Assembly (NCBI GenBank): GCA_947497485.1
Contig: CANMHB010000003.1
Span: 186,001 to 250,000, forward strand
Reading direction: 5' to 3'
Length of the DNA stretch: 64,000 bases
Source: Flavobacteriales bacterium
Lineage (GTDB): Bacteria > Bacteroidota > Bacteroidia > Flavobacteriales_D > Crocinitomicaceae
Below the pieces are notes generated by a model. The model did not search any database. It worked only from the letters and a program-made list of their open reading frames with translations, and was not told where the DNA came from. The stretch's first letter is position 1, and each line of letters opens with the position of its first letter. Positions 51,918-60,269 of this stretch are shown piece after piece. The position numbers and the translations under genes are program-made.

Positions 51918-52901
51918 ATGAAAGTTTGGGACTCACAATTAATATTGAAAAAAATGAAAATCCTTAATTTCTATCAACTTGGAGAATTTTTCGAAAAGAA
52001 CCAAAACAAAAACATTGGCTTATCCCCTACTTTTATAGAGCAAGTTAAAAGTGAATTTCATTTACTATCAAAAGAATTCATCAAAACCAAATTTAAAATC
52101 AGGGATAAATTTTCGCATAAAGGAACCTATGGGCATGCATTGATAATTTCAGGTTCTATAGGCAAAATGGGAGCTTGTGTTTTAAGCACGAAAGCGGCGT
52201 TGCGTTCTGGTGTCGGTTTGGTAACCGCCTTTGTTCCAAAATGTGGACTGGAAATACTTCAAATGACCAATCCAGAAGCCATGTGTGAATTAAGTTTGGA
52301 AGAAAATTACCTTGCTAGTGATTTGAATTGGAAAAAATACAATGCAATTGGAATTGGGCCCGGAATCGGAAAAGAAATAAAAACGATGCAATTAATTGAA
52401 CATTTGTTTACTCATTATGACGGACCAATGGTAATTGATGCCGATGCATTAAATCTGATTTCAGAATACGATTCGTTGTTTGATAAAATCCCCAAGAATG
52501 CTGTTTTAACACCGCACCCAAAAGAATTTGATCGCCTTTTCGGGAGGTCTGAATCCGCAGAACAACGATTAATCAAACAAAGAGCATCTTCGAAAAAATT
52601 GGCTTGCTACATTTTATTAAAAGGGGCACATACTTCGATTTCAACTCCGGAAGGATGCGTTTACATTAACAATACGGGAAATTCAGGAATGGCCAAAGGC
52701 GGATCCGGAGATGTTTTAACCGGATTAATTAGCGGATTACTTGCCCAAGGATATTCTTCCTTGGATGCCAGTTTAATTGGTGTTTGGATTCATGGTTTGG
52801 CAGGTGATTTCGCAAAACAAAAGAAAAATGAAATTACGATGACGGCAATCGATTTGGTTGATGGTTTTACGGAAGCTTTTTCCTCATCAATTAGCCTCTA
52901 A
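51918..52901 (+). CDS. nnrD: ADP-dependent NAD(P)HX dehydratase, lacking the epimerase domain
   Basis: A 327-residue repair enzyme that dehydrates NAD(P)H hydrates. The carbohydrate-kinase-like domain is complete: KGTYGHALIISGS, GIGPGIGKE, VIDADALNL, TPHPKEF, LKGAHT and NTGNSGMAKGGSGDVLTG. In bifunctional Nnr proteins an epimerase domain of about 220 residues precedes it. Here residues 1-45 look like remnants: MKIL (residue 13 on) at the front and IGLSPTFIEQ at the junction. Either ATG 51918 or 51954 could be the start. It is convergent with aroA, three bases between stops. Confidence 0.9.
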   Translation: MKVWDSQLILKKMKILNFYQLGEFFEKNQNKNIGLSPTFIEQVKSEFHLLSKEFIKTKFKIRDKFSHKGTYGHALIISGSIGKMGACVLSTKAALRSGVGLVTAFVPKCGLEILQMTNPEAMCELSLEENYLASDLNWKKYNAIGIGPGIGKEIKTMQLIEHLFTHYDGPMVIDADALNLISEYDSLFDKIPKNAVLTPHPKEFDRLFGRSESAEQRLIKQRASSKKLACYILLKGAHTSISTPEGCVYINNTGNSGMAKGGSGDVLTGLISGLLAQGYSSLDASLIGVWIHGLAGDFAKQKKNEITMTAIDLVDGFTEAFSSSISL

Positions 52902-52904
52902 ACT

Positions 52905-54167
52905 CTAGAGAATTTTGCAATTCAATTGCTCCAAGCATTCAAAAAAATCTGGAAATGACTTTTTCACTACCTCACTATTTTTAATCACAACTGATCCTGA
53001 TGTTGATGATAGTGCCATTATCGATGCAGCCATTGCTATGCGGTGATCCCCATGTGGATTAATCATTGCAGGATACACCTCATCAATTCCATTTATAATC
53101 ATTTCATTACCAACAATTTGAATTTTCGCCCCCAATTTTGTCAGTTCTGATTGAATCGTAGCAGCTCGATTACTTTCTTTGTAAATCAATCTGGAAACAC
53201 CTTTAATCTTTGATTCACCTTGAGCAAACGAGGCCAATACAGTCAATGGCGGAAATAAATCAGGACAATGTGTTGCATCAAATTCAAATGCTTTTGATTG
53301 ATTTTTAACAATCCGAATACCATTGTCAAGTAGAATTTCTGCTCCGAAATCCTTTAAAGCTTCGAGAATTTTTCGGTCCGCTTGCTTTGAATCTATGTTT
53401 AATCCATGAATAGTAATATCGCCTAGTATAGATGCAGCAACTAGAAAGAAAGAAGCACTGCTCCAATCTCCTTCGATTGAAATTTCAGTTTCCTTTAAAT
53501 TATATGGCCCTGAAAATTGAATTTTGTTATTTTCAAATTTCAAATCAACTCCAAAATTTCGCAAAACGTCCAAAGTAAGCTCGATGTATGGAATACTTGT
53601 TGGGTTTACTACTTCTATCGTTTCATTTCTCAATAAAGGAGAGGCGATATAGCCAAGAATTAATCCTGTTACAAACTGTGAACTCAGCGATCCATCAATT
53701 TGAATTGATTTAGGTATCAATGGACCTTTCATTTGAAAAGGAAGTTTCCCCTGATTCGATTGAAAATCAGCTCCTAGAGAAGTCATTAATTCATCAAATT
53801 GATCCATTGGGCGATTCAAGATGCTACCTTCTCCTGTAAGCTCAAGTGTCGATCTGAAATTAGCCAAAATTGGAGTCATCATTCTGGTTGCTAGTCCTGA
53901 CTCATTAATATTGAGTGATGGCATACCCTCATTTTTGAAATCTATTCCTTGAATTTTTATTTCATCTTCATTTTGTAATACTCTTGCACCAGCATCTTTA
54001 ATTAATTGGAAGACAGCTAATTCATCATCTGAATTTCCAAAGTTTTTTATCAAAGTAGTTTCCTGACTAATCAGAGCGCACGCTAGAACCCGTTGAGCAT
54101 GGCTTTTGGAAGGGGGAATTTTTAAAGAACCTTCAACCTTAATTACATTTGATATTATTTTTTCCAT
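52905..54167 (-). CDS. aroA: 3-phosphoshikimate 1-carboxyvinyltransferase
   Basis: EPSP synthase, joining shikimate-3-phosphate and phosphoenolpyruvate. The 420-residue protein has KIPPSKSHAQRVLACALI (substrate-binding Lys-Ser-Arg), NESGLATRM, LSSQFVTGLIL, DWSSASFFLVAA, ESNRAATI and HGDHRIAMAASIMAL. It is the fourth gene of the asnA-pheA-DAHPS/CM-aroA operon, 23 bases after the DAHP synthase gene. Stop codons of aroA and nnrD are almost adjacent, and no terminator hairpin was seen between them. Confidence 0.96.
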   Translation of the reverse strand: MEKIISNVIKVEGSLKIPPSKSHAQRVLACALISQETTLIKNFGNSDDELAVFQLIKDAGARVLQNEDEIKIQGIDFKNEGMPSLNINESGLATRMMTPILANFRSTLELTGEGSILNRPMDQFDELMTSLGADFQSNQGKLPFQMKGPLIPKSIQIDGSLSSQFVTGLILGYIASPLLRNETIEVVNPTSIPYIELTLDVLRNFGVDLKFENNKIQFSGPYNLKETEISIEGDWSSASFFLVAASILGDITIHGLNIDSKQADRKILEALKDFGAEILLDNGIRIVKNQSKAFEFDATHCPDLFPPLTVLASFAQGESKIKGVSRLIYKESNRAATIQSELTKLGAKIQIVGNEMIINGIDEVYPAMINPHGDHRIAMAASIMALSSTSGSVVIKNSEVVKKSFPDFFECLEQLNCKIL

Positions 54168-54190
54168 CAGGCAGTTTGTAGAAATTAGGA

Positions 54191-55237
54191 CTATAATTCA
54201 TGTATTTCATTTTGAAGACGTATACTTTCGACATGTAATAATTCCATCATTGATTTCACAAATTCCTCACTCAATTTAAGTTGCTTTCCTTTAACAATGC
54301 TTTTTAATAGGATTTCATTCCATCTATTATTTTGCAACACAGTTACATTGTTGCTTCTCTTTAATTGCCCTATTTTCTCAGCAATGTTCATTCGAGATCG
54401 GATTAAAGACAATAACTCGTCATCATAAAAATTAATTTGTTCACGGAATTCGTCAATTTGTAACTGAAAATCTGGTAAATCCGTGGTTTTCTTTTTCCAA
54501 ACTAAGTTTTCATAACCAATTTTAAGTTGACTCGGAGTAATTTGCTGATCCTTATCTGTCCATGCTTCATCCGGTGAAATATGTGATTCAATTATTAAAC
54601 CATTATAATCCAAATCTAAACTCTTTTGCGATATTTCAAAGATTCGAGCTCGCTTACCAGTAATGTGTGATGGATCGCAAATCATAGGAATTTCAGGAAA
54701 TAGTCTCTTCATCTCGATTGGAATTTGCCAAAGTGGTGCATTACGAAATTCGGAATTTCCATAAGATGAAAAGCCTCGGTGTATCAATCCTACATTTGTG
54801 ATTCCTGCTTTTTGAATACGCTCCAAAGCCCCAATCCATAACTTTAAGTCTGGATTTACAGGGTTTTTAATAAAAACCATAGCATCTGTTCCTTTTAATG
54901 CATCCGCCACATGCTGAACGCTAAATGGATTAACAGATGTACGCGCTCCAATCCAAAGTAAATCCACATCAAAATTTAAGCAATCTTCCACGTGTTTTCC
55001 TGTAGCAACTTCGGTTGCAGTTTTTAATCCAGTTTCATTTTTCGCGTTTAGCAGCCAAGACAAACCTTTGACTCCCGCCCCCTCATATCCACCAGGATTG
55101 GTTCTTGGTTTCCAAATTCCAGCTCGTAAATAATCAACTAAGCCCGTATCTTTGAGTTGCAATGCGGTATCAACGAGTTGTTTTTCAGTTTCAGCGCTAC
55201 ATGGACCTGAAATAAGTATATTTTTATTTTGTGTCAT
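54191..55237 (-). CDS. Bifunctional DAHP synthase / chorismate mutase
   Basis: A 348-residue fusion. Residues 1-255 are a type I-beta (KDO8PS-like) DAHP synthase (ISGPCSAET, RAGIWKPRTNPG, IHRGFSSYG, CDPSHITGKR), making the first shikimate-pathway intermediate from PEP and erythrose-4-phosphate. Residues about 265-348 are an AroQ-type chorismate mutase (LQIDEFREQINFYDDELLSLIRSRM, IAEKIGQLKR). This order is common in Bacteroidota, where the mutase part can act in feedback control. Its ATG overlaps the pheA stop. Confidence 0.95.
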   Translation of the reverse strand: MTQNKNILISGPCSAETEKQLVDTALQLKDTGLVDYLRAGIWKPRTNPGGYEGAGVKGLSWLLNAKNETGLKTATEVATGKHVEDCLNFDVDLLWIGARTSVNPFSVQHVADALKGTDAMVFIKNPVNPDLKLWIGALERIQKAGITNVGLIHRGFSSYGNSEFRNAPLWQIPIEMKRLFPEIPMICDPSHITGKRARIFEISQKSLDLDYNGLIIESHISPDEAWTDKDQQITPSQLKIGYENLVWKKKTTDLPDFQLQIDEFREQINFYDDELLSLIRSRMNIAEKIGQLKRSNNVTVLQNNRWNEILLKSIVKGKQLKLSEEFVKSMMELLHVESIRLQNEIHEL

Positions 55238-56067
55238 TATTCATTATAATTTGCAGATTTATAAATCCCAAGAATTTTCATTTGTTGAGCAAGCTTTTTA
55301 ACTTCCCCGAGTGATTGATCCAACTCATCTCTATTCGTGAATTCCAAATCTAGATGAAAAATATACTGTTGTGTATTATTGGGAATTGGAACACTTTGAA
55401 TTTTCGTCAAATTAATTCGATATTTTTTGAATATTAAAAGAATTTCGCTTAAGGAGCCTATTTCACTTTGTGAAATTAAATTTACTGATGCCTTATCTGG
55501 GTTTACCACATTAAAGTTTCCTTTGGTCATAATATAGAAACGGGTAAAATTAATTTTTTCATCACAAATATTAGCAGTCAATTTTTGAAGGTTATATTGA
55601 TCTGCTACAGTATTACCGGCAATTACTGCAACATTATTTTTATCACTGTGATTAATCAATTTTGCTGACTCTGCCGTATCCTTGTATTCAGATACTTTTA
55701 CATCATTCAATCCCGAAAGGAATTCTTGACACTGACCAAGGGCCATTGGATGAGAAATAATCTCTGTAATATCTTCTAGCGAAGTTCCATCCTTGGCCAA
55801 TAGATATAATTCAACTGGTAAATAGGTTTCACCAATGATATTTAAATCATAATGCTCAATTAATTGATAATTGAGTAAAATTGTTCCAGCAACCTTATTT
55901 TCAATTGCGATAATTCCGTAGTCAACAAGATTGTTTGATAGACGATCACAAACTTCCCTGAATGAACCGCATTCAATTACATTGATATCATTACCAAAAA
56001 ATTTTTTGGCTGCTTGATCATGAAATGAGGCAATTGAGCCCTGTATTGCAATATTTTCGTTACGCAT
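55237..56067 (-). CDS. pheA: Prephenate dehydratase
   Basis: A 276-residue enzyme turning prephenate into phenylpyruvate, the committed step to phenylalanine. The catalytic domain includes GSIASFHDQAAKKFF, IAIENKVAGT and the conserved INFTRFYIMTKG. The C-terminal ACT domain (about 195-270) has KIQSVPIPN in place of the IESRP motif that binds phenylalanine, while the SEIGSLSEIL part is closer to the usual GALV region. Feedback inhibition by Phe may therefore be changed. One base separates it from asnA. Confidence 0.94.
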   Translation of the reverse strand: MRNENIAIQGSIASFHDQAAKKFFGNDINVIECGSFREVCDRLSNNLVDYGIIAIENKVAGTILLNYQLIEHYDLNIIGETYLPVELYLLAKDGTSLEDITEIISHPMALGQCQEFLSGLNDVKVSEYKDTAESAKLINHSDKNNVAVIAGNTVADQYNLQKLTANICDEKINFTRFYIMTKGNFNVVNPDKASVNLISQSEIGSLSEILLIFKKYRINLTKIQSVPIPNNTQQYIFHLDLEFTNRDELDQSLGEVKKLAQQMKILGIYKSANYNE

Positions 56068-56068
56068 T

Positions 56069-57064
56069 TTATAAAATATTTAATTCGTTTTCAATTGAGT
56101 ATATTTCTTTATCGAAGTTCCATACACTGCTTTGAACCTCTCCAATATGTCGTTTTTGTAATAAGAACATAGCCAATCTTGATTGGCCAATTCCTCCTCC
56201 AATTGTTTGAGGAAGTTTTCCTTCGATAAGCGCTCTATGCCAATCTAGTGATTTTCGTTCTTCATTACCGGCAATTTTTAACTGACGTAAAAGTGATTCT
56301 TTATCAACACGAATTCCCATTGACGAAATTTCAATCGATTTGTTTAAAACGGAGTTCCAAAGAAGTAGATCGCCATTCAGTCCTTTGTATCCAGTCGAAG
56401 TTTCAGATGACCAGTCATCATAGTCTGAAGCTCTACCGTCGTGGGCTTTGCCATCAGCCAATACTCCACCGATGCCGATTAGGAAAACAGCACCATATTT
56501 TTTGCAAATTTCGTTTTCACGTTCTTTTGCTGTTAAATTCGGATATAATTCTAAAACGTCCTCGGTATGTAAATACGTAATTGCCTGAGGTAATTCACTC
56601 ACAATTCCATACTTTTCAGTCAATTCGAATGCCACACTTTTTATTGATTCATAGATTTTAGAAACAGTGGCTTTTAAATAATCCAAATTTCTATCTTCAC
56701 TTGAAATGACTTTTTCCCAATCCCATTGATCAACATAAACACTATGTAATTCCGTTAAAACCTCATCCGTTCGAATAGCGCGCATATCCGTATAAATACC
56801 TTGTTCAGGCTTAGCCCCCAATTTAGCTAACTTTTCTCTTTTCCATTTTGCCAACGAATGAACGATTTCAAATTTTTTGGAAGGAATATTATTGATGGAA
56901 ACAGAAACGGGACTTTCAATGCCATTAAGGTCATCATTGACTCCAGTTCCTTTTTCAACCAATAGTGGAGCTTCCACTTTAATTAGGTTCAATTTCGAAC
57001 TTAGCTCTTTTGCAAATTTTGATTTAACAAATGAAATCTGTTCTTCTCTTTTGTACTTTTCCAT
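56069..57064 (-). CDS. asnA: Aspartate-ammonia ligase (asparagine synthetase A)
   Basis: AsnA makes asparagine from aspartate, ammonia and ATP, with a class II aminoacyl-tRNA-synthetase-like fold. The 331-residue sequence has VEAPLLVEKGTGVNDDLNG, KWKREKLAKLG, MRAIRTDE, DQWDWEKVI and GGGIGQSRLAMFLLQKRHIGEVQ, all typical. It leads an operon with three aromatic amino-acid genes, an uncommon partner set. A leader peptide rich in Asn and Phe and a terminator lie upstream (57094-57241), so expression is probably controlled by attenuation. Confidence 0.96.
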   Translation of the reverse strand: MEKYKREEQISFVKSKFAKELSSKLNLIKVEAPLLVEKGTGVNDDLNGIESPVSVSINNIPSKKFEIVHSLAKWKREKLAKLGAKPEQGIYTDMRAIRTDEVLTELHSVYVDQWDWEKVISSEDRNLDYLKATVSKIYESIKSVAFELTEKYGIVSELPQAITYLHTEDVLELYPNLTAKERENEICKKYGAVFLIGIGGVLADGKAHDGRASDYDDWSSETSTGYKGLNGDLLLWNSVLNKSIEISSMGIRVDKESLLRQLKIAGNEERKSLDWHRALIEGKLPQTIGGGIGQSRLAMFLLQKRHIGEVQSSVWNFDKEIYSIENELNIL

Positions 57065-57093
57065 TTTATTGTTTGTTTTAGAAATTAATAATC

Positions 57094-57121
57094 AAAAAAA
57101 AAGCCTTCAAAATGGAAGGCT
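57094..57121 (-). terminator. Attenuator terminator before asnA
   Basis: Minus-strand hairpin AGCCTTC (57115-57121) with GAAGGCT (57102-57108), 6-base loop, followed by nine T residues (57094-57102). It stands 29 bases before the asnA ATG and after the promoter, so it can only act as an attenuator. Its 5' arm can pair instead with GAAGGT at 57145-57150, just after the leader-peptide stop. Confidence 0.9.
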
Positions 57122-57144
57122 CAAATTTTATATATACAATTCTT

Positions 57145-57169
57145 ACCTTCTCAATCTGATATGAAAAAG
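57145..57169 (-). promoter_or_regulatory. Antiterminator segments of the asnA leader
   Basis: Segment 1, CTTTTTC (57163-57169), lies within the Asn-Phe-Phe codons and can pair with segment 2, GAGAAGG (57146-57152), which overlaps the leader stop. Segment 2 (as GAAGGT, 57145-57150) can also pair with segment 3, GCCTTC of the terminator's 5' arm, with an additional AATT:AATT stem closing the loop. These are the 1:2, 2:3 and 3:4 pairings of a classical attenuator, drawn by eye. Confidence 0.7.
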
Positions 57170-57207
57170 TTAAAATTATTATTTGCTGCGTTTTGCATGT
57201 AAATCAT
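57151..57207 (-). CDS. Asn/Phe-rich leader peptide of the asnA operon
   Basis: An 18-residue open frame, MIYMQNAANNNFNFFISD, ending in TGA. Codons 9-15 read AAT AAT AAT TTT AAC TTT TTC, seven Asn or Phe codons in a row, and a further Asn is at position 6. It begins a few bases after a consensus -7 box; the second ATG (codon 4) may be the real start. By analogy with trp, his and phe leaders, stalling at uncharged tRNA-Asn or tRNA-Phe would favour antitermination. Too short for gene finders. Expression is inferred, not shown. Confidence 0.8.
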   Translation of the reverse strand: MIYMQNAANNNFNFFISD

Positions 57208-57211
57208 GATG

Positions 57212-57241
57212 CAAATTTACATAATAAATTTAATTTTCAAA
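57212..57241 (-). promoter_or_regulatory. Promoter of the asnA leader and operon
   Basis: Minus-strand TTTG (57238-57241), an 18-base spacer and TAAATTTG (57212-57219), matching both Bacteroidota promoter boxes. Transcription should start around 57205-57208, at or just before the leader ATG. Confidence 0.75.
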
Positions 57242-57335
57242 TTAGATTTATTACTTTTTTTACGAATTTTTATTGCCCAACTTACATTTATTTTAAAATC
57301 AACATCATACAATTTATATAAATTCTTTCAGATCA

Positions 57336-58217
57336 TTAATCAAATAAATCGGTGGAAAGATATTTATCTCCGCGGTCACAGATGATGCAAACCACAATTC
57401 CGGAAGTAAGATTTGGAACTAATTTCATTGCAGCTGCAACGCTACCCCCACTGCTCATTCCTGAAAACACGCCTTCCTCTTGCGCCAATCTTCTTGCCAT
57501 TTCCCGTGCCTCTAATTCAGTAACTTCAACAATTTGATCAACACGACTCGCATCAAAGATTCCCGGCAAGTATTCCTTGGGCCATTTTCGAATCCCAGGT
57601 ATTTTTGCATTATCCGCTGGTTGAGCTCCGATAATTTTTATATCCGAATTTTGTTCTTTTAGAAAACGTGAAACGCCCATAATCGTTCCTGTTGTTCCCA
57701 TTGCTGAAACGAAATGAGTGATTTCTCCTTGCGTATCATGAAAAATTTCAGGGCCTGTTGTTTCGTAATGCATTCTCGGGTTATCGAAGTTATTAAACTG
57801 ATCCAGAGAAACATACCCTTCATTATCTACTTTGTTTCTTGCGTAATCAATAGCTGCCTCCATTCCACCAGATTCTGGTGTAAGCGTAACTTTCGCACCA
57901 AATGCCCGCATCGTTTGAACGCGTTCACGCGTTGAATTTTCAGGTAAAACTATTTCAATATCTAACTGATGAAGTTTCGCAATCATTGCCAAAGCAATAC
58001 CTGTATTACCGCTTGTTGCTTCAATTAATTTTGAGTCCGACTTAATAATTCCACGTTCAATTCCGCCTTTAATCAAACCATAAGCTGCTCTATCTTTTAC
58101 GCTACCACCCGGGTTATGACCTTCCAATTTCCCAAACAAACGCACATTCGGATTGGTATTGATATTCTTCAATTCTACCAAGGGTGTATTGCCAATAAAA
58201 TCGAGTAAAGTTGCCAT
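57336..58217 (-). CDS. cysM: Cysteine synthase (O-acetylserine sulfhydrylase, CysM-type)
   Basis: A 293-residue PLP enzyme making cysteine from O-acetylserine and sulfide. The PLP lysine is in NPGGSVKDRAA (about residues 36-46), with EATSGNTGIALAM and the C-terminal GMSSGGSVAAAMKL. The sequence looks more CysM-like than CysK-like; substrate preference (sulfide or thiosulfate) cannot be settled. It directly follows the serine acetyltransferase gene (start one base after the latter's stop) and ends the sulfate-assimilation operon. Confidence 0.94.
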   Translation of the reverse strand: MATLLDFIGNTPLVELKNINTNPNVRLFGKLEGHNPGGSVKDRAAYGLIKGGIERGIIKSDSKLIEATSGNTGIALAMIAKLHQLDIEIVLPENSTRERVQTMRAFGAKVTLTPESGGMEAAIDYARNKVDNEGYVSLDQFNNFDNPRMHYETTGPEIFHDTQGEITHFVSAMGTTGTIMGVSRFLKEQNSDIKIIGAQPADNAKIPGIRKWPKEYLPGIFDASRVDQIVEVTELEAREMARRLAQEEGVFSGMSSGGSVAAAMKLVPNLTSGIVVCIICDRGDKYLSTDLFD

Positions 58218-59021
58218 TTATGCTTTGTTTATAATTAAGTCTGATTGATGATAAACGGTGGAATTTGGTTCAATGCTTTTTGTCAACCAAACATTTCCTC
58301 CGATGATGCTATTTTTTCCTATTACGGTCTTTCCTCCGAGAATGGTCGCTCCTGCGTAAATCACGACATTATCCTCAATTGTCGGATGTCTTTTCGTTTC
58401 GGCCATCTCTTTACTTACACTCAAAGCACCTAGAGTTACACCTTGATATATTTTTACGTTATCACCGATGACACTCGTTTCTCCAATTACGATTCCCGTT
58501 CCATGATCTATGAAAAAATTGGTTCCAATTGTGGCACCTGGATGAATATCAATTCCCGTTTTTTGATGTGCCAGCTCGGTTAAGATCCTTGGAATTGAAG
58601 GAACTTTAAAGTGGTGTAATAAATTGGCAAATCGAAACACACAAATAGCATAGAATCCCGGATATGATCGCATGACTTCTTCAATATTTCGTGCCGCTGG
58701 ATCTCCTTTCTCTATGGATTCAGCATCGGAAATCAATTTTTCATATATGACAGGAATTTCTTGAAAAAAGTCATTGGAAAGGATACTCGGACTTTGCTCC
58801 AAAGAATCTTCGATGTGTTGCAAAAGATGAATTAACTGTTGTTTGTTTCGTTCAAAATCCTCTACTAATTTTGCCACTGAAACAACTTTCCGATTGCTAT
58901 ATGCTGGAAATAAATTCCCCATCAAATCTTCCATGAAACCCTCAACCAATTGTGGCGAAGGAAGATTCGACTTTGAAATGTGACGCTCAAATAATTTTGA
59001 AATGAACTCGTTCGAATACAT
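58218..59021 (-). CDS. Serine O-acetyltransferase
   Basis: A 267-residue serine acetyltransferase of the EpsC/CysE type that makes O-acetylserine for cysteine synthase. An N-terminal helical domain (residues 1-140) is followed by a left-handed beta-helix with hexapeptide repeats (IDIHPGATIGTNFFIDHGTGIVIGETSVIG, GVTLGALS, VVIYAGATILGGKTVIG). The catalytic histidine is in DHGTGIVIGE. The gene sits three bases downstream of cysN and next to cysM, a tight functional pair. Confidence 0.94.
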   Translation of the reverse strand: MYSNEFISKLFERHISKSNLPSPQLVEGFMEDLMGNLFPAYSNRKVVSVAKLVEDFERNKQQLIHLLQHIEDSLEQSPSILSNDFFQEIPVIYEKLISDAESIEKGDPAARNIEEVMRSYPGFYAICVFRFANLLHHFKVPSIPRILTELAHQKTGIDIHPGATIGTNFFIDHGTGIVIGETSVIGDNVKIYQGVTLGALSVSKEMAETKRHPTIEDNVVIYAGATILGGKTVIGKNSIIGGNVWLTKSIEPNSTVYHQSDLIINKA

Positions 59022-59024
59022 GGA

Positions 59025-60269
59025 TCAATGGATTACGCCCGCGGCAACTGTATTGTTTGTGTTTTCGTTAATCAGAATAAAAGCTCCTGTTTTCCGATTT
59101 CTGGAATACGAATCATAGCTAACCGACTCAGCTGTTTTGATATTCACTTTACAGAAATCGTTCAAATTCATGGTTCCGTCGCTTGGAACTTCATCAAACG
59201 AATGAATATCGATTTTCGCTTCAAGTTCTTTTATAACCGCTTTTGAGCGGAAGCTGTTTTGTTGAAATAGTAATTTCTGACCACTTTGATATGCTTTGTT
59301 ATCCATCCAACAAATAGTTGCTTCGATTAAATTATCTGAATTTGGTAGTTCATTTAATTTTACAATCGTGCTGCCTCGACTCACATCAAAATCTTCCGAT
59401 AAATGTATCACAATCGGATCACCTTCCTTGGCTTCATCAACCTCAATTTGAAACTTTTCAATTTTCTCAATGGTAGTTGAAACATCCAAGGGTAAAATTT
59501 GAACGCGATCTCCCTTTCGAAGTGAACCACTCAAAACATTTCCGGCGTATCCGCGATAATCGTGTAATTCATCTGTTTGAGGCCGAATAACATATTGAAC
59601 TTGAAAACGCGCTTCTTTCTGATCGTTTTCTTCAACAACTGGAACATTTTCTAAAAATTTAAAAAGAGATTCTCCTTTAAACCAAGATAAATTTTCAGAG
59701 GATTTCACCACATTATCACCTGCTAAGGCACTCACAGGAATGAATGAAATTTTCTTCAAACCTAACCTTTGTGAAAACTTTAAGTAATCAGATTTAATTT
59801 CTTCAAAAACAGATTCTTTGTATTCAACTAAATCCATTTTATTAACACAAATCAAAATGTGAGGAATTCCCAAAATAGATGAAATAATACTATGTCTTTT
59901 TGTTTGATCGGTAATTCCGTTTCTTGCATCAATTAAGATGATGGCTAAATCCGCGTTCGATGCACCAGTAAACATGTTTCGCGTATATTGGGCATGCCCT
60001 GGCGTATCAGCTATGATAAACTTTCGTTTTTCCGTTGTAAAATACTTATACGCTACATCAATGGTAATACCCTGTTCGCGTTCTGCGCGCAAACCATCTG
60101 TTAGCAATGCCAAATCAATTTCGGTATCAACCCCTGTTGATTTGCTTTGACGGGTCAATGTTTCAATTATGTCCGTCGAAATCGACTTACTGTCATATAG
60201 CAAACGACCGATTAAGGTGCTTTTACCGTCATCTACGTTTCCTGCTGTAAAAAATCTTAGTAATTCCAT
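59025..60269 (-). CDS. cysN: Sulfate adenylyltransferase subunit 1 (GTPase)
   Basis: The regulatory GTPase of ATP sulfurylase, an EF-Tu-like protein that drives APS formation with CysD. G motifs: GNVDDGKSTLIGRLL (G1, residues 10-24), DTPGHAQYTRNM (G3), VNKMD (G4). The 414 residues end with the EF-Tu-like beta barrels, without the APS-kinase (CysC) fusion found in some bacteria. It is 58 bases downstream of cysD; the gap contains a copy of the dispersed GCGAGTTGC repeat. Confidence 0.96.
   Translation of the reverse strand: MELLRFFTAGNVDDGKSTLIGRLLYDSKSISTDIIETLTRQSKSTGVDTEIDLALLTDGLRAEREQGITIDVAYKYFTTEKRKFIIADTPGHAQYTRNMFTGASNADLAIILIDARNGITDQTKRHSIISSILGIPHILICVNKMDLVEYKESVFEEIKSDYLKFSQRLGLKKISFIPVSALAGDNVVKSSENLSWFKGESLFKFLENVPVVEENDQKEARFQVQYVIRPQTDELHDYRGYAGNVLSGSLRKGDRVQILPLDVSTTIEKIEKFQIEVDEAKEGDPIVIHLSEDFDVSRGSTIVKLNELPNSDNLIEATICWMDNKAYQSGQKLLFQQNSFRSKAVIKELEAKIDIHSFDEVPSDGTMNLNDFCKVNIKTAESVSYDSYSRNRKTGAFILINENTNNTVAAGVIH

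Follow-up and report, generated by a model that had tools for sequence, protein, structure and literature searches.

The asnA-pheA operon and its genomic setting

The window, i.e., the entire 64-kb stretch of DNA analyzed here, carries on its minus strand four genes in the order asnA-pheA-DAHPS/CM-aroA, an order that the original prediction had proposed and that profile matches confirm. They code for aspartate--ammonia ligase (asnA, 56069..57064; TIGR00669, 445 bits, cut-off 292.8), prephenate dehydratase (pheA, 55237..56067; PF00800, 182 bits, cut-off 25.2; also 182 bits with NCBIfam NF008865, under the cut-off of 219), a DAHP synthase/chorismate mutase fusion (54191..55237; PF00793 and PF01817, above cut-off), and EPSP synthase (aroA, 52905..54167; TIGR01356, 337 bits against 287). 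A single base separates asnA from pheA, so neither a promoter nor a gate fits between them. The operon is flanked on one side by an NAD(P)H-hydrate dehydratase gene (PF01256, 51918-52901, plus strand), which converges on aroA until their ends are three bases apart, and on the other by a cysteine synthase gene, which lies 5' of the leader in the same direction as asnA and ends at 57336, 214 nt ahead of the hairpin described below.

The genome to which the window belongs is 99.99% complete, and its relatives on the AsnA tree place the organism in Bacteroidota. No match to TyrA (PF02153) or Phe hydroxylase (PF00351) was found in it, which is consistent with a Phe-only aromatic signal; pheA and chorismate mutase are present, and the organism is probably either auxotrophic for Tyr or equipped with a further route to it. 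Given three further strong matches and one marginal match to the Asn_synthase family in the same genome, asnA may not be its sole route to Asn.

Anatomy of the leader

The region upstream of asnA begins with a predicted promoter (57212..57241, minus strand, as are all features of the leader) comprised of TTTG at 57241-57238, an 18-nt spacer, and TAAATTTG at 57219-57212, which we take to be of the Bacteroidota type. An exact TANNTTTG is found at most 90 nt 5' of the sole or first leader in nine of the 11 asnA-pheA loci for which that leader is listed. The promoter is followed by a leader frame, MIYMQNAANNNFNFFISD, of 18 codons (57151..57207 with its stop), running from an ATG at 57207 to a TGA at 57153-57151; an alternative ATG at 57198 would give the 15-codon MQNAANNNFNFFISD. 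As the first ATG lies only 4 nt past the -7 box, translation is probably leaderless, or else begins at the second ATG. Codons 9-15 (57163..57183) are AAT AAT AAT TTT AAC TTT TTC, i.e., N N N F N F F, and the sole Tyr of the leader falls outside this run. Folding assigns segment 1 (AACTTTTTC, 57163..57171) as a partner of segment 2 (GAGAAGGT, 57145..57152), which contains GAGAAGG, overlaps the stop codon, and can pair instead with segment 3 (AGCCTTC, 57115..57121). The latter is the 5' arm of a terminator hairpin (57122-57101) with an 8-pair stem including 4 G-C pairs, whose segment 4 (GAAGGCT, 57108-57102) runs into a U tract of nine T (57102-57094); the element qualifies as an intrinsic terminator between the leader frame and asnA. 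Every detail of the leader given in the original prediction, namely the TTTG, spacer, box, 18-codon frame, codon run, hairpin, and nine T, was recovered in the sequence. A short frame with an apparent control-codon cluster thus precedes the operon here, as it does in relatives, and the putative control codons correspond to what the operon makes, with AsnA and PheA both identified, although this rule has exceptions elsewhere.

The 117-nt leader folds far better than expected by chance (z = -3.9), and no shuffle out of 200 equalled it. In a test devised after the sequence was seen, an uninterrupted series of seven Asn/Phe codons in a short ATG frame ahead of a terminator turned up a single time in the window and never in 60 dinucleotide shuffles. 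When both strands of the 64-kb window were scanned for short ATG frames enriched in a single residue of whatever kind and placed 12-45 nt ahead of a strong terminator, only this leader, with its two possible starts, was recovered.

Codon-resolved folding model

Placing a ribosome at each codon in turn, we folded with ViennaRNA the RNA that it leaves uncovered, the first uncovered base being 12 nt past the beginning of the A-site codon. In the window leader, the terminator has a modelled probability of 1.00 through codon 7, 0.96 and 0.92 at codons 8-9, then 0.02, 0, 0, 0, 0.05, and 0.08 at N10, N11, F12, N13, F14, and F15, before rising to 0.35 at I16 and 1.00 from S17 onward; varying the ribosome edge between 9 and 16 nt moves the switch by about one codon. 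The 1:2, 2:3, and 3:4 pairings put forward in the original prediction are reproduced by this folding, and in the model they are mutually exclusive and set by the position of the ribosome. A stall at either an Asn or a Phe codon within codons 10-15 is predicted to favor antitermination. On the other hand, a halt at N6 or N9 would leave the 1:2 pairing possible and is predicted to result in termination, so the model prefers slow passage to full arrest.

Equilibrium switching is seen in 14 of the 48 modelled leaders. Summed over these 14, the coincidence of control codons with low terminator probability is 4.72 (null sd 0.63), a value reached in none of 2000 free permutations; under a stricter circular-shift null (sd 1.12) it was reached in none of 5000, and this is unchanged with all 50 leaders (L015 and L155 were omitted from the 48-leader permutation, and the circular-shift repeat was run with and without them). 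No single leader falls below 0.05 under circular shifts, the window itself being at 0.11 and not significant. Only four of the 14 asnA-pheA leaders switch at equilibrium, with the terminator at 95% or above throughout in the other 10, for which the argument is hence kinetic. In transcripts ending before segment 4, the 2:3 pairing is at least 80% at the control codons in all 14 asnA-pheA leaders, and at the stop it is at most 45% in 13 of them, with L010 holding 70%. In the model, the pairings thus follow one another as they do in attenuation.

The whole-leader folds of 11 further leaders have z of -3.5 or lower in seven cases; the fold of L002 does not exceed chance (z -0.86), that of L005 does so only weakly (z -1.84), and the control codons of L011a are out of register with the modelled switch. 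Complementarity between segments 2 and 3 is better than in shuffles at p<0.05 in 12 of 50 leaders (median 0.19), as measured over a narrow stretch that misses a segment 2 lying inside longer frames; L012b and L016b, for which no hairpin was found at this step, were left out of the model.

Relatives with asnA-pheA leaders

Matches to asnA are present in three of 86 genomes of the genus and 24 of 240 of the family, and, at a stricter E-value, in samples of the order (20 of 399) and of the class (23 of 395), with the window genome counted in all four. In family f45, a count that does not include the window genome, asnA is present in five of 46 genomes; an additional asnA sample consists of the best 80 named loci. 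In the family, pheA is matched in 30 of 240 genomes, one of them weakly. We regarded pheA as tied to the asnA promoter where it follows asnA without TANNTTTG in the gap and the upstream region is readable. All 12 such loci besides the window carry an Asn- and Phe-containing leader with a terminator, so that a search for related asnA-pheA operons lacking both codon run and hairpin, the check named in the original prediction, returned none among these 12. Four family loci that start within asnA (L003, L013, L023, and L025) are unjudgeable. The asnA-pheA gaps are 1-10 nt, except for 120 nt in L159 and L210.

Beside the window leader (L001), these include MKMSKVFFNNMFNFFNLD (L002), MIINNNFFFFFNHFKF (the same peptide in L004 and L015), MISISLSINWMNLFFNHFKF (L005), MKTMNNNFFNFNNHTK (L006), MKMMSNNFFFNNNNHIR (L008), MKINNTYFFFNNNYMT (L010), MISSRNNNSFFNYNSM (L014), and MRVNNFSHNFFNTPP (L056, in which the contig end truncates a first unit to NNNFCFFNFKD), while L011, L159, and L210 have two asnA leaders each. 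For L015, whose genome has the pheA side on a separate contig (L025, gap 2 nt), the two parts were taken as one operon. The leader sequences vary while their composition persists, as expected if the codons rather than the peptide matter. Mapped onto the AsnA tree, the asnA-pheA state requires four changes, three of them forced by well-supported branches; the four independent pairs that can be drawn from it go as predicted in a mean of 3.7-3.8 cases with none opposed and the remainder equal, with thresholds set after the data were seen and a number of pairs that cannot reach 0.05.

Leaders of this kind are not universal at asnA. By our filters, six of 21 readable family asnA loci lack an Asn/Phe-rich leader, as do 73 of the best 80 named asnA loci (Bacteroidales, Proteobacteria, Streptococcus, and others, a few with little upstream DNA), 17 of 23 loci in the set L153-L175, two of five in family f45, and L150. 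In L024/L054 (genome G194), asnA is leaderless by the same filters and pheA lies close behind with its own promoter-like motif and Phe leader. L157 was counted as a leader despite being weak (4 Asn, no run), and the Streptococcus loci L057, L060, and L061, which passed a loose filter for Asn and Phe, were excluded from the leader count.

Leader composition and operon content

The mean numbers of Asn, Phe, and Tyr per leader are 4.7/4.0/0.6 for asnA-pheA (14 leaders from 12 loci, window included), 6.0/2.3/0.5 for asnA-only (20 leaders), and 2.1/4.0/1.8 for pheA-only operons (18 leaders). One frame was chosen where several starts or overlapping frames were listed, and L012a (GTG start), L012b, and L016b were picked by hand; L016, whose downstream region is unread, is in the asnA-only means and absent from the density test given below, L009 (likewise unread) is in neither, L015 was left out of the density test, and L210 and L209 were left out of the group means. 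At least 3 Asn together with at least 2 Phe are found in all 14 asnA-pheA leaders, and in six of the 18 pheA-only ones. Where pheA stands apart from asnA, its leaders are of the Phe/Tyr type (e.g., MVQNFNFFFFSFFHKRD, MKTWNNFFFYYSFFTQSE, MTYHNFYFYFFWKK...), and where asnA stands apart from pheA, its leaders are mainly Asn-rich (e.g., MRQFNNSLNNQNRNNNLFRRW... in Hymenobacter, or MKKSINNNNNNNST, the second of two in Mesonia). A simple rule by which Phe is present only if pheA follows was rejected, since 14 of the 20 asnA-only leaders hold at least 2 Phe; the groups are separable by proportion and density only. The Phe of asnA-only leaders sits mainly in first or sole leaders, and in L007 the first asnA leader has four Phe although pheA has its own TANNTTTG and leader. 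Conversely, L044 has a pheA leader with 4 Asn in a genome with no asnA match.

Tandem leaders recur at these loci. Second tandem units often have Pro-Pro past the Asn/Phe run (L011, L012, L016, L056, L153, L159, L209, and L210), in the forms GPPP, NSPPD, KAPPW, NTPP, KSPP, ATPPGGD, NNPPP, and YNPP. L052 and L053 have two tandem Phe/Tyr leaders with separate terminators 5' of pheA, the second one of L053 including Trp (TYWYFFF).

A pair of loci from sister species of one genus, L210 and L209, allows a direct comparison. In L210 (family f45), pheA follows asnA after a 120-nt gap without TANNTTTG, and the two asnA leaders, MRNFNNNNFFNYPII and MNNFFNNNFNYNPP, combine Asn, Phe, and Tyr. In L209, the 219-nt gap contains TANNTTTG, an F/Y leader, MTTTFYNTYFFIYPKYRTER, lies 5' of pheA, and the asnA leaders MKKLNNNNLFNNQF and MKTNINNNLNNNPPPEEGK hold 2 and 0 Phe. 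In this pair, then, the asnA gate contains Phe if pheA depends on it, and hardly any if not. Taken together, the sequences indicate that leader codon content tracks operon content across the groups and in this pair. Between asnA and pheA, L210 has a third, Phe/Tyr-rich frame with a terminator (MTTYFFEYFFKYH, 2491-2593). L197 (same locus as L159) has a similar layout with MNKSITYFFYYFFNFKN (1909-2012) in a gap without TANNTTTG, and its operon continues into an aminotransferase and TyrA (PF02153, 123.6 bits), the latter matching the Tyr codons of its leader. The gap element of L210 and L197 is a candidate gate inside the operon.

The leaders of L210 and L209, the internal gates, and a leader 5' of hisG were modelled as a separate set. 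No equilibrium switch was obtained for L210a-c and L197c, and of the L209 leaders only L209a dips, to a modelled 0.31, at an Asn codon. The hisG element, a candidate leader (MNFTITHHHLLLG) with a terminator in the window genome (L213; G000:C4), has a modelled 2:3 pairing that drops only to 64-75% at the end. It is a possible second amino-acid attenuator, for His, in the window organism, by which leader attenuation may extend past the asnA operon in this genome.

A proposed dual Asn/Phe attenuator and its alternatives

We propose that the window leader is most likely a ribosome-mediated transcription attenuator that reads Asn and Phe together. RNA polymerase would start just 5' of the 15- or 18-codon frame. 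When Asn-tRNA and Phe-tRNA are both plentiful, the ribosome would read through the mixed run (N N N F N F F), reach the stop codon, and mask segment 2, upon which the 3:4 terminator would form and asnA-pheA-DAHPS/CM-aroA would be off. When either charged tRNA is scarce, the ribosome would be slow at the mixed run, segments 2 and 3 would pair, and transcription would proceed into the operon; the logic of the gate would be an OR on scarcity. The reading given in the original prediction is largely supported by the sequence comparisons and the model: the anatomy, the relatives, the codon-operon link, and the modelled switch speak for a dual attenuator, but stalls at N6 and N9 are predicted to terminate rather than to release the operon.

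The Phe codons also make up segment 1, hence part of the Phe content is structural. This opens the way to an Asn-only attenuator, in which Phe itself goes unsensed and its codons are present because pairing with segment 2 (GGAAGG) demands a U/C-rich segment 1, as in UUUCUUC. In the folds of the window, L006, L008, and L010, segment 2 is indeed the partner of the Phe codons in segment 1, and FF is also found in the asnA-only first leaders L012a (NNNFFNTNSNS) and L153a (NNFFNYNSNNN). However, the density of Phe in the sole or gene-proximal leader is higher at the 12 asnA-pheA loci (0.12-0.44) than at the 15 asnA-only loci (0-0.18; p=4e-5, rows non-independent), tandem second leaders hold 3-4 Phe where pheA is tied (L011, L056, L159, and L210) as against 0-1, or none within the Asn run, where it is apart (L007, L012, L080, L153, and L209), and independent pheA operons of the same family carry Phe leaders. 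We therefore consider an Asn-only gate unlikely, and the sensing of Phe beyond its structural role, as judged from sequence and model, well supported if not proven.

The converse, a Phe-only attenuator whose Asn codons derive from A+T-rich sequence or ancestry, could draw on the just 34.9% G+C of the window and on the presence of some Asn in pheA-only leaders (mean 2.1; 4 in L044). It appears improbable in the extreme: the Asn count is 4.7 in asnA-pheA against 2.1 in pheA-only leaders (p=1e-5, rows non-independent), the asnA-pheA leaders L006, L008, and L010 of genus g4 hold 5-6 Asn whereas its five separate-pheA leaders hold 2 each, and Asn runs recur at stand-alone asnA even in Hymenobacter-type loci of 59-68% G+C, where A+T richness is not their source. 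The location of the cysteine synthase gene, in the same direction and 214 nt from the hairpin, raises yet another alternative, namely that the hairpin terminates that gene or is a constitutive partial terminator, with the short frame being an untranslated coincidence. We rejected this as very improbable, given that a promoter-like motif separates the gene from the hairpin, the combination of frame, gap of ~20-40 nt, and terminator recurs before asnA, pheA, and hisG and also in tandem, the five upstream genes compared show no similarity to one another, and codon content follows operon content.

Beyond the dual Asn/Phe attenuator of the window, we lean slightly toward viewing attenuation in Bacteroidota as a rewritable logic layer, in which codons are re-composed as genes join or leave the operon, with tandem gates and, in some species, an internal Phe/Tyr gate. 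Under such a scheme, an asnA gate would read Asn, a pheA gate Phe/Tyr (whether or not tyrA is present), and a joint gate Asn and Phe, with or without Tyr. In the species with an internal gate, this would lie before pheA and a common Asn-or-Phe/Tyr gate would precede asnA; asnA would then answer either shortage and the aromatic genes only their own. If correct, these proposals would extend the range of amino acids sensed by leader peptides to asparagine, have a single leader serve two unrelated pathways, and imply that the ribosome and RNA polymerase travel close together in Bacteroidota. The natural series of Asn, Phe/Tyr, Asn+Phe, Asn+Phe+Tyr, tandem, and internal gates allows control codons to be compared with operon content.

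Comparison with known attenuation systems

The trp, his, leu, and pheA attenuators each read one amino acid, while the leaders of thrABC (Thr, Ile), ilvGMEDA (Ile, Val, Leu), and ilvBN (Val, Leu) read several. Among other leader elements, leu-phe_leader reads Leu or Phe and Bacteroid-trp Trp, each singly, and T-boxes have Asn- or Phe-specific forms in Firmicutes. Like the window leader, the T-box is a sensor of tRNA charging that acts on a terminator; the former, however, would sense it via the translating ribosome, and no T-box covariance match was found at 52000-60000. A comparative survey by Lopatovskaya et al. from 2010 is probably the most relevant one, and such leaders may have been mentioned there earlier.

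The Rfam leader elements leu-phe_leader (RF01743, Lactococcus) and Bacteroid-trp (RF01692, Bacteroidetes), as listed in PMC2864571, share with our case a leader before amino-acid genes, the latter being from the same phylum. Nevertheless, Rfam leader families including these two gave no match at E up to 5 over 52000-60000, where there are only four sub-threshold Rfam matches, the one at the leader being RyhB with 25 bits against a cut-off of 55; a known Rfam identity for the leader was accordingly rejected. In the open-licence PMC literature, a scope outside which most subscription journals lie, we found no Asn or Asn+Phe leader attenuator described in the accessible portions, including those of PMC4833913, PMC2965389, PMC2864571, PMC7366714, PMC1183508, PMC4132733, and PMC1262725. 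Hence, the mechanism is a known one, and what we did not find described is the Asn+Phe pair, an Asn leader, and codon content that tracks operon content.

The attenuation scheme and the list of operons with trp, his, leu, and pheA leaders are given in PMC1183508. With these systems of E. coli and Salmonella, the window leader has in common a short frame with control codons, the 1:2, 2:3, and 3:4 pairings, and a terminator before the first gene; it differs in apparently reading two amino acids of unrelated pathways, in its occurrence in Bacteroidota, and in its near-leaderless start. It resembles the thrABC, ilvGMEDA, and ilvBN leaders in that a single leader carries control codons for several amino acids. 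Yet, the amino acids of those leaders share a pathway or precursor, whereas Asn and Phe do not, and leaders of the window type differ further in that their codons change with operon content between species and in that their candidate gates occur in tandem or inside the operon.
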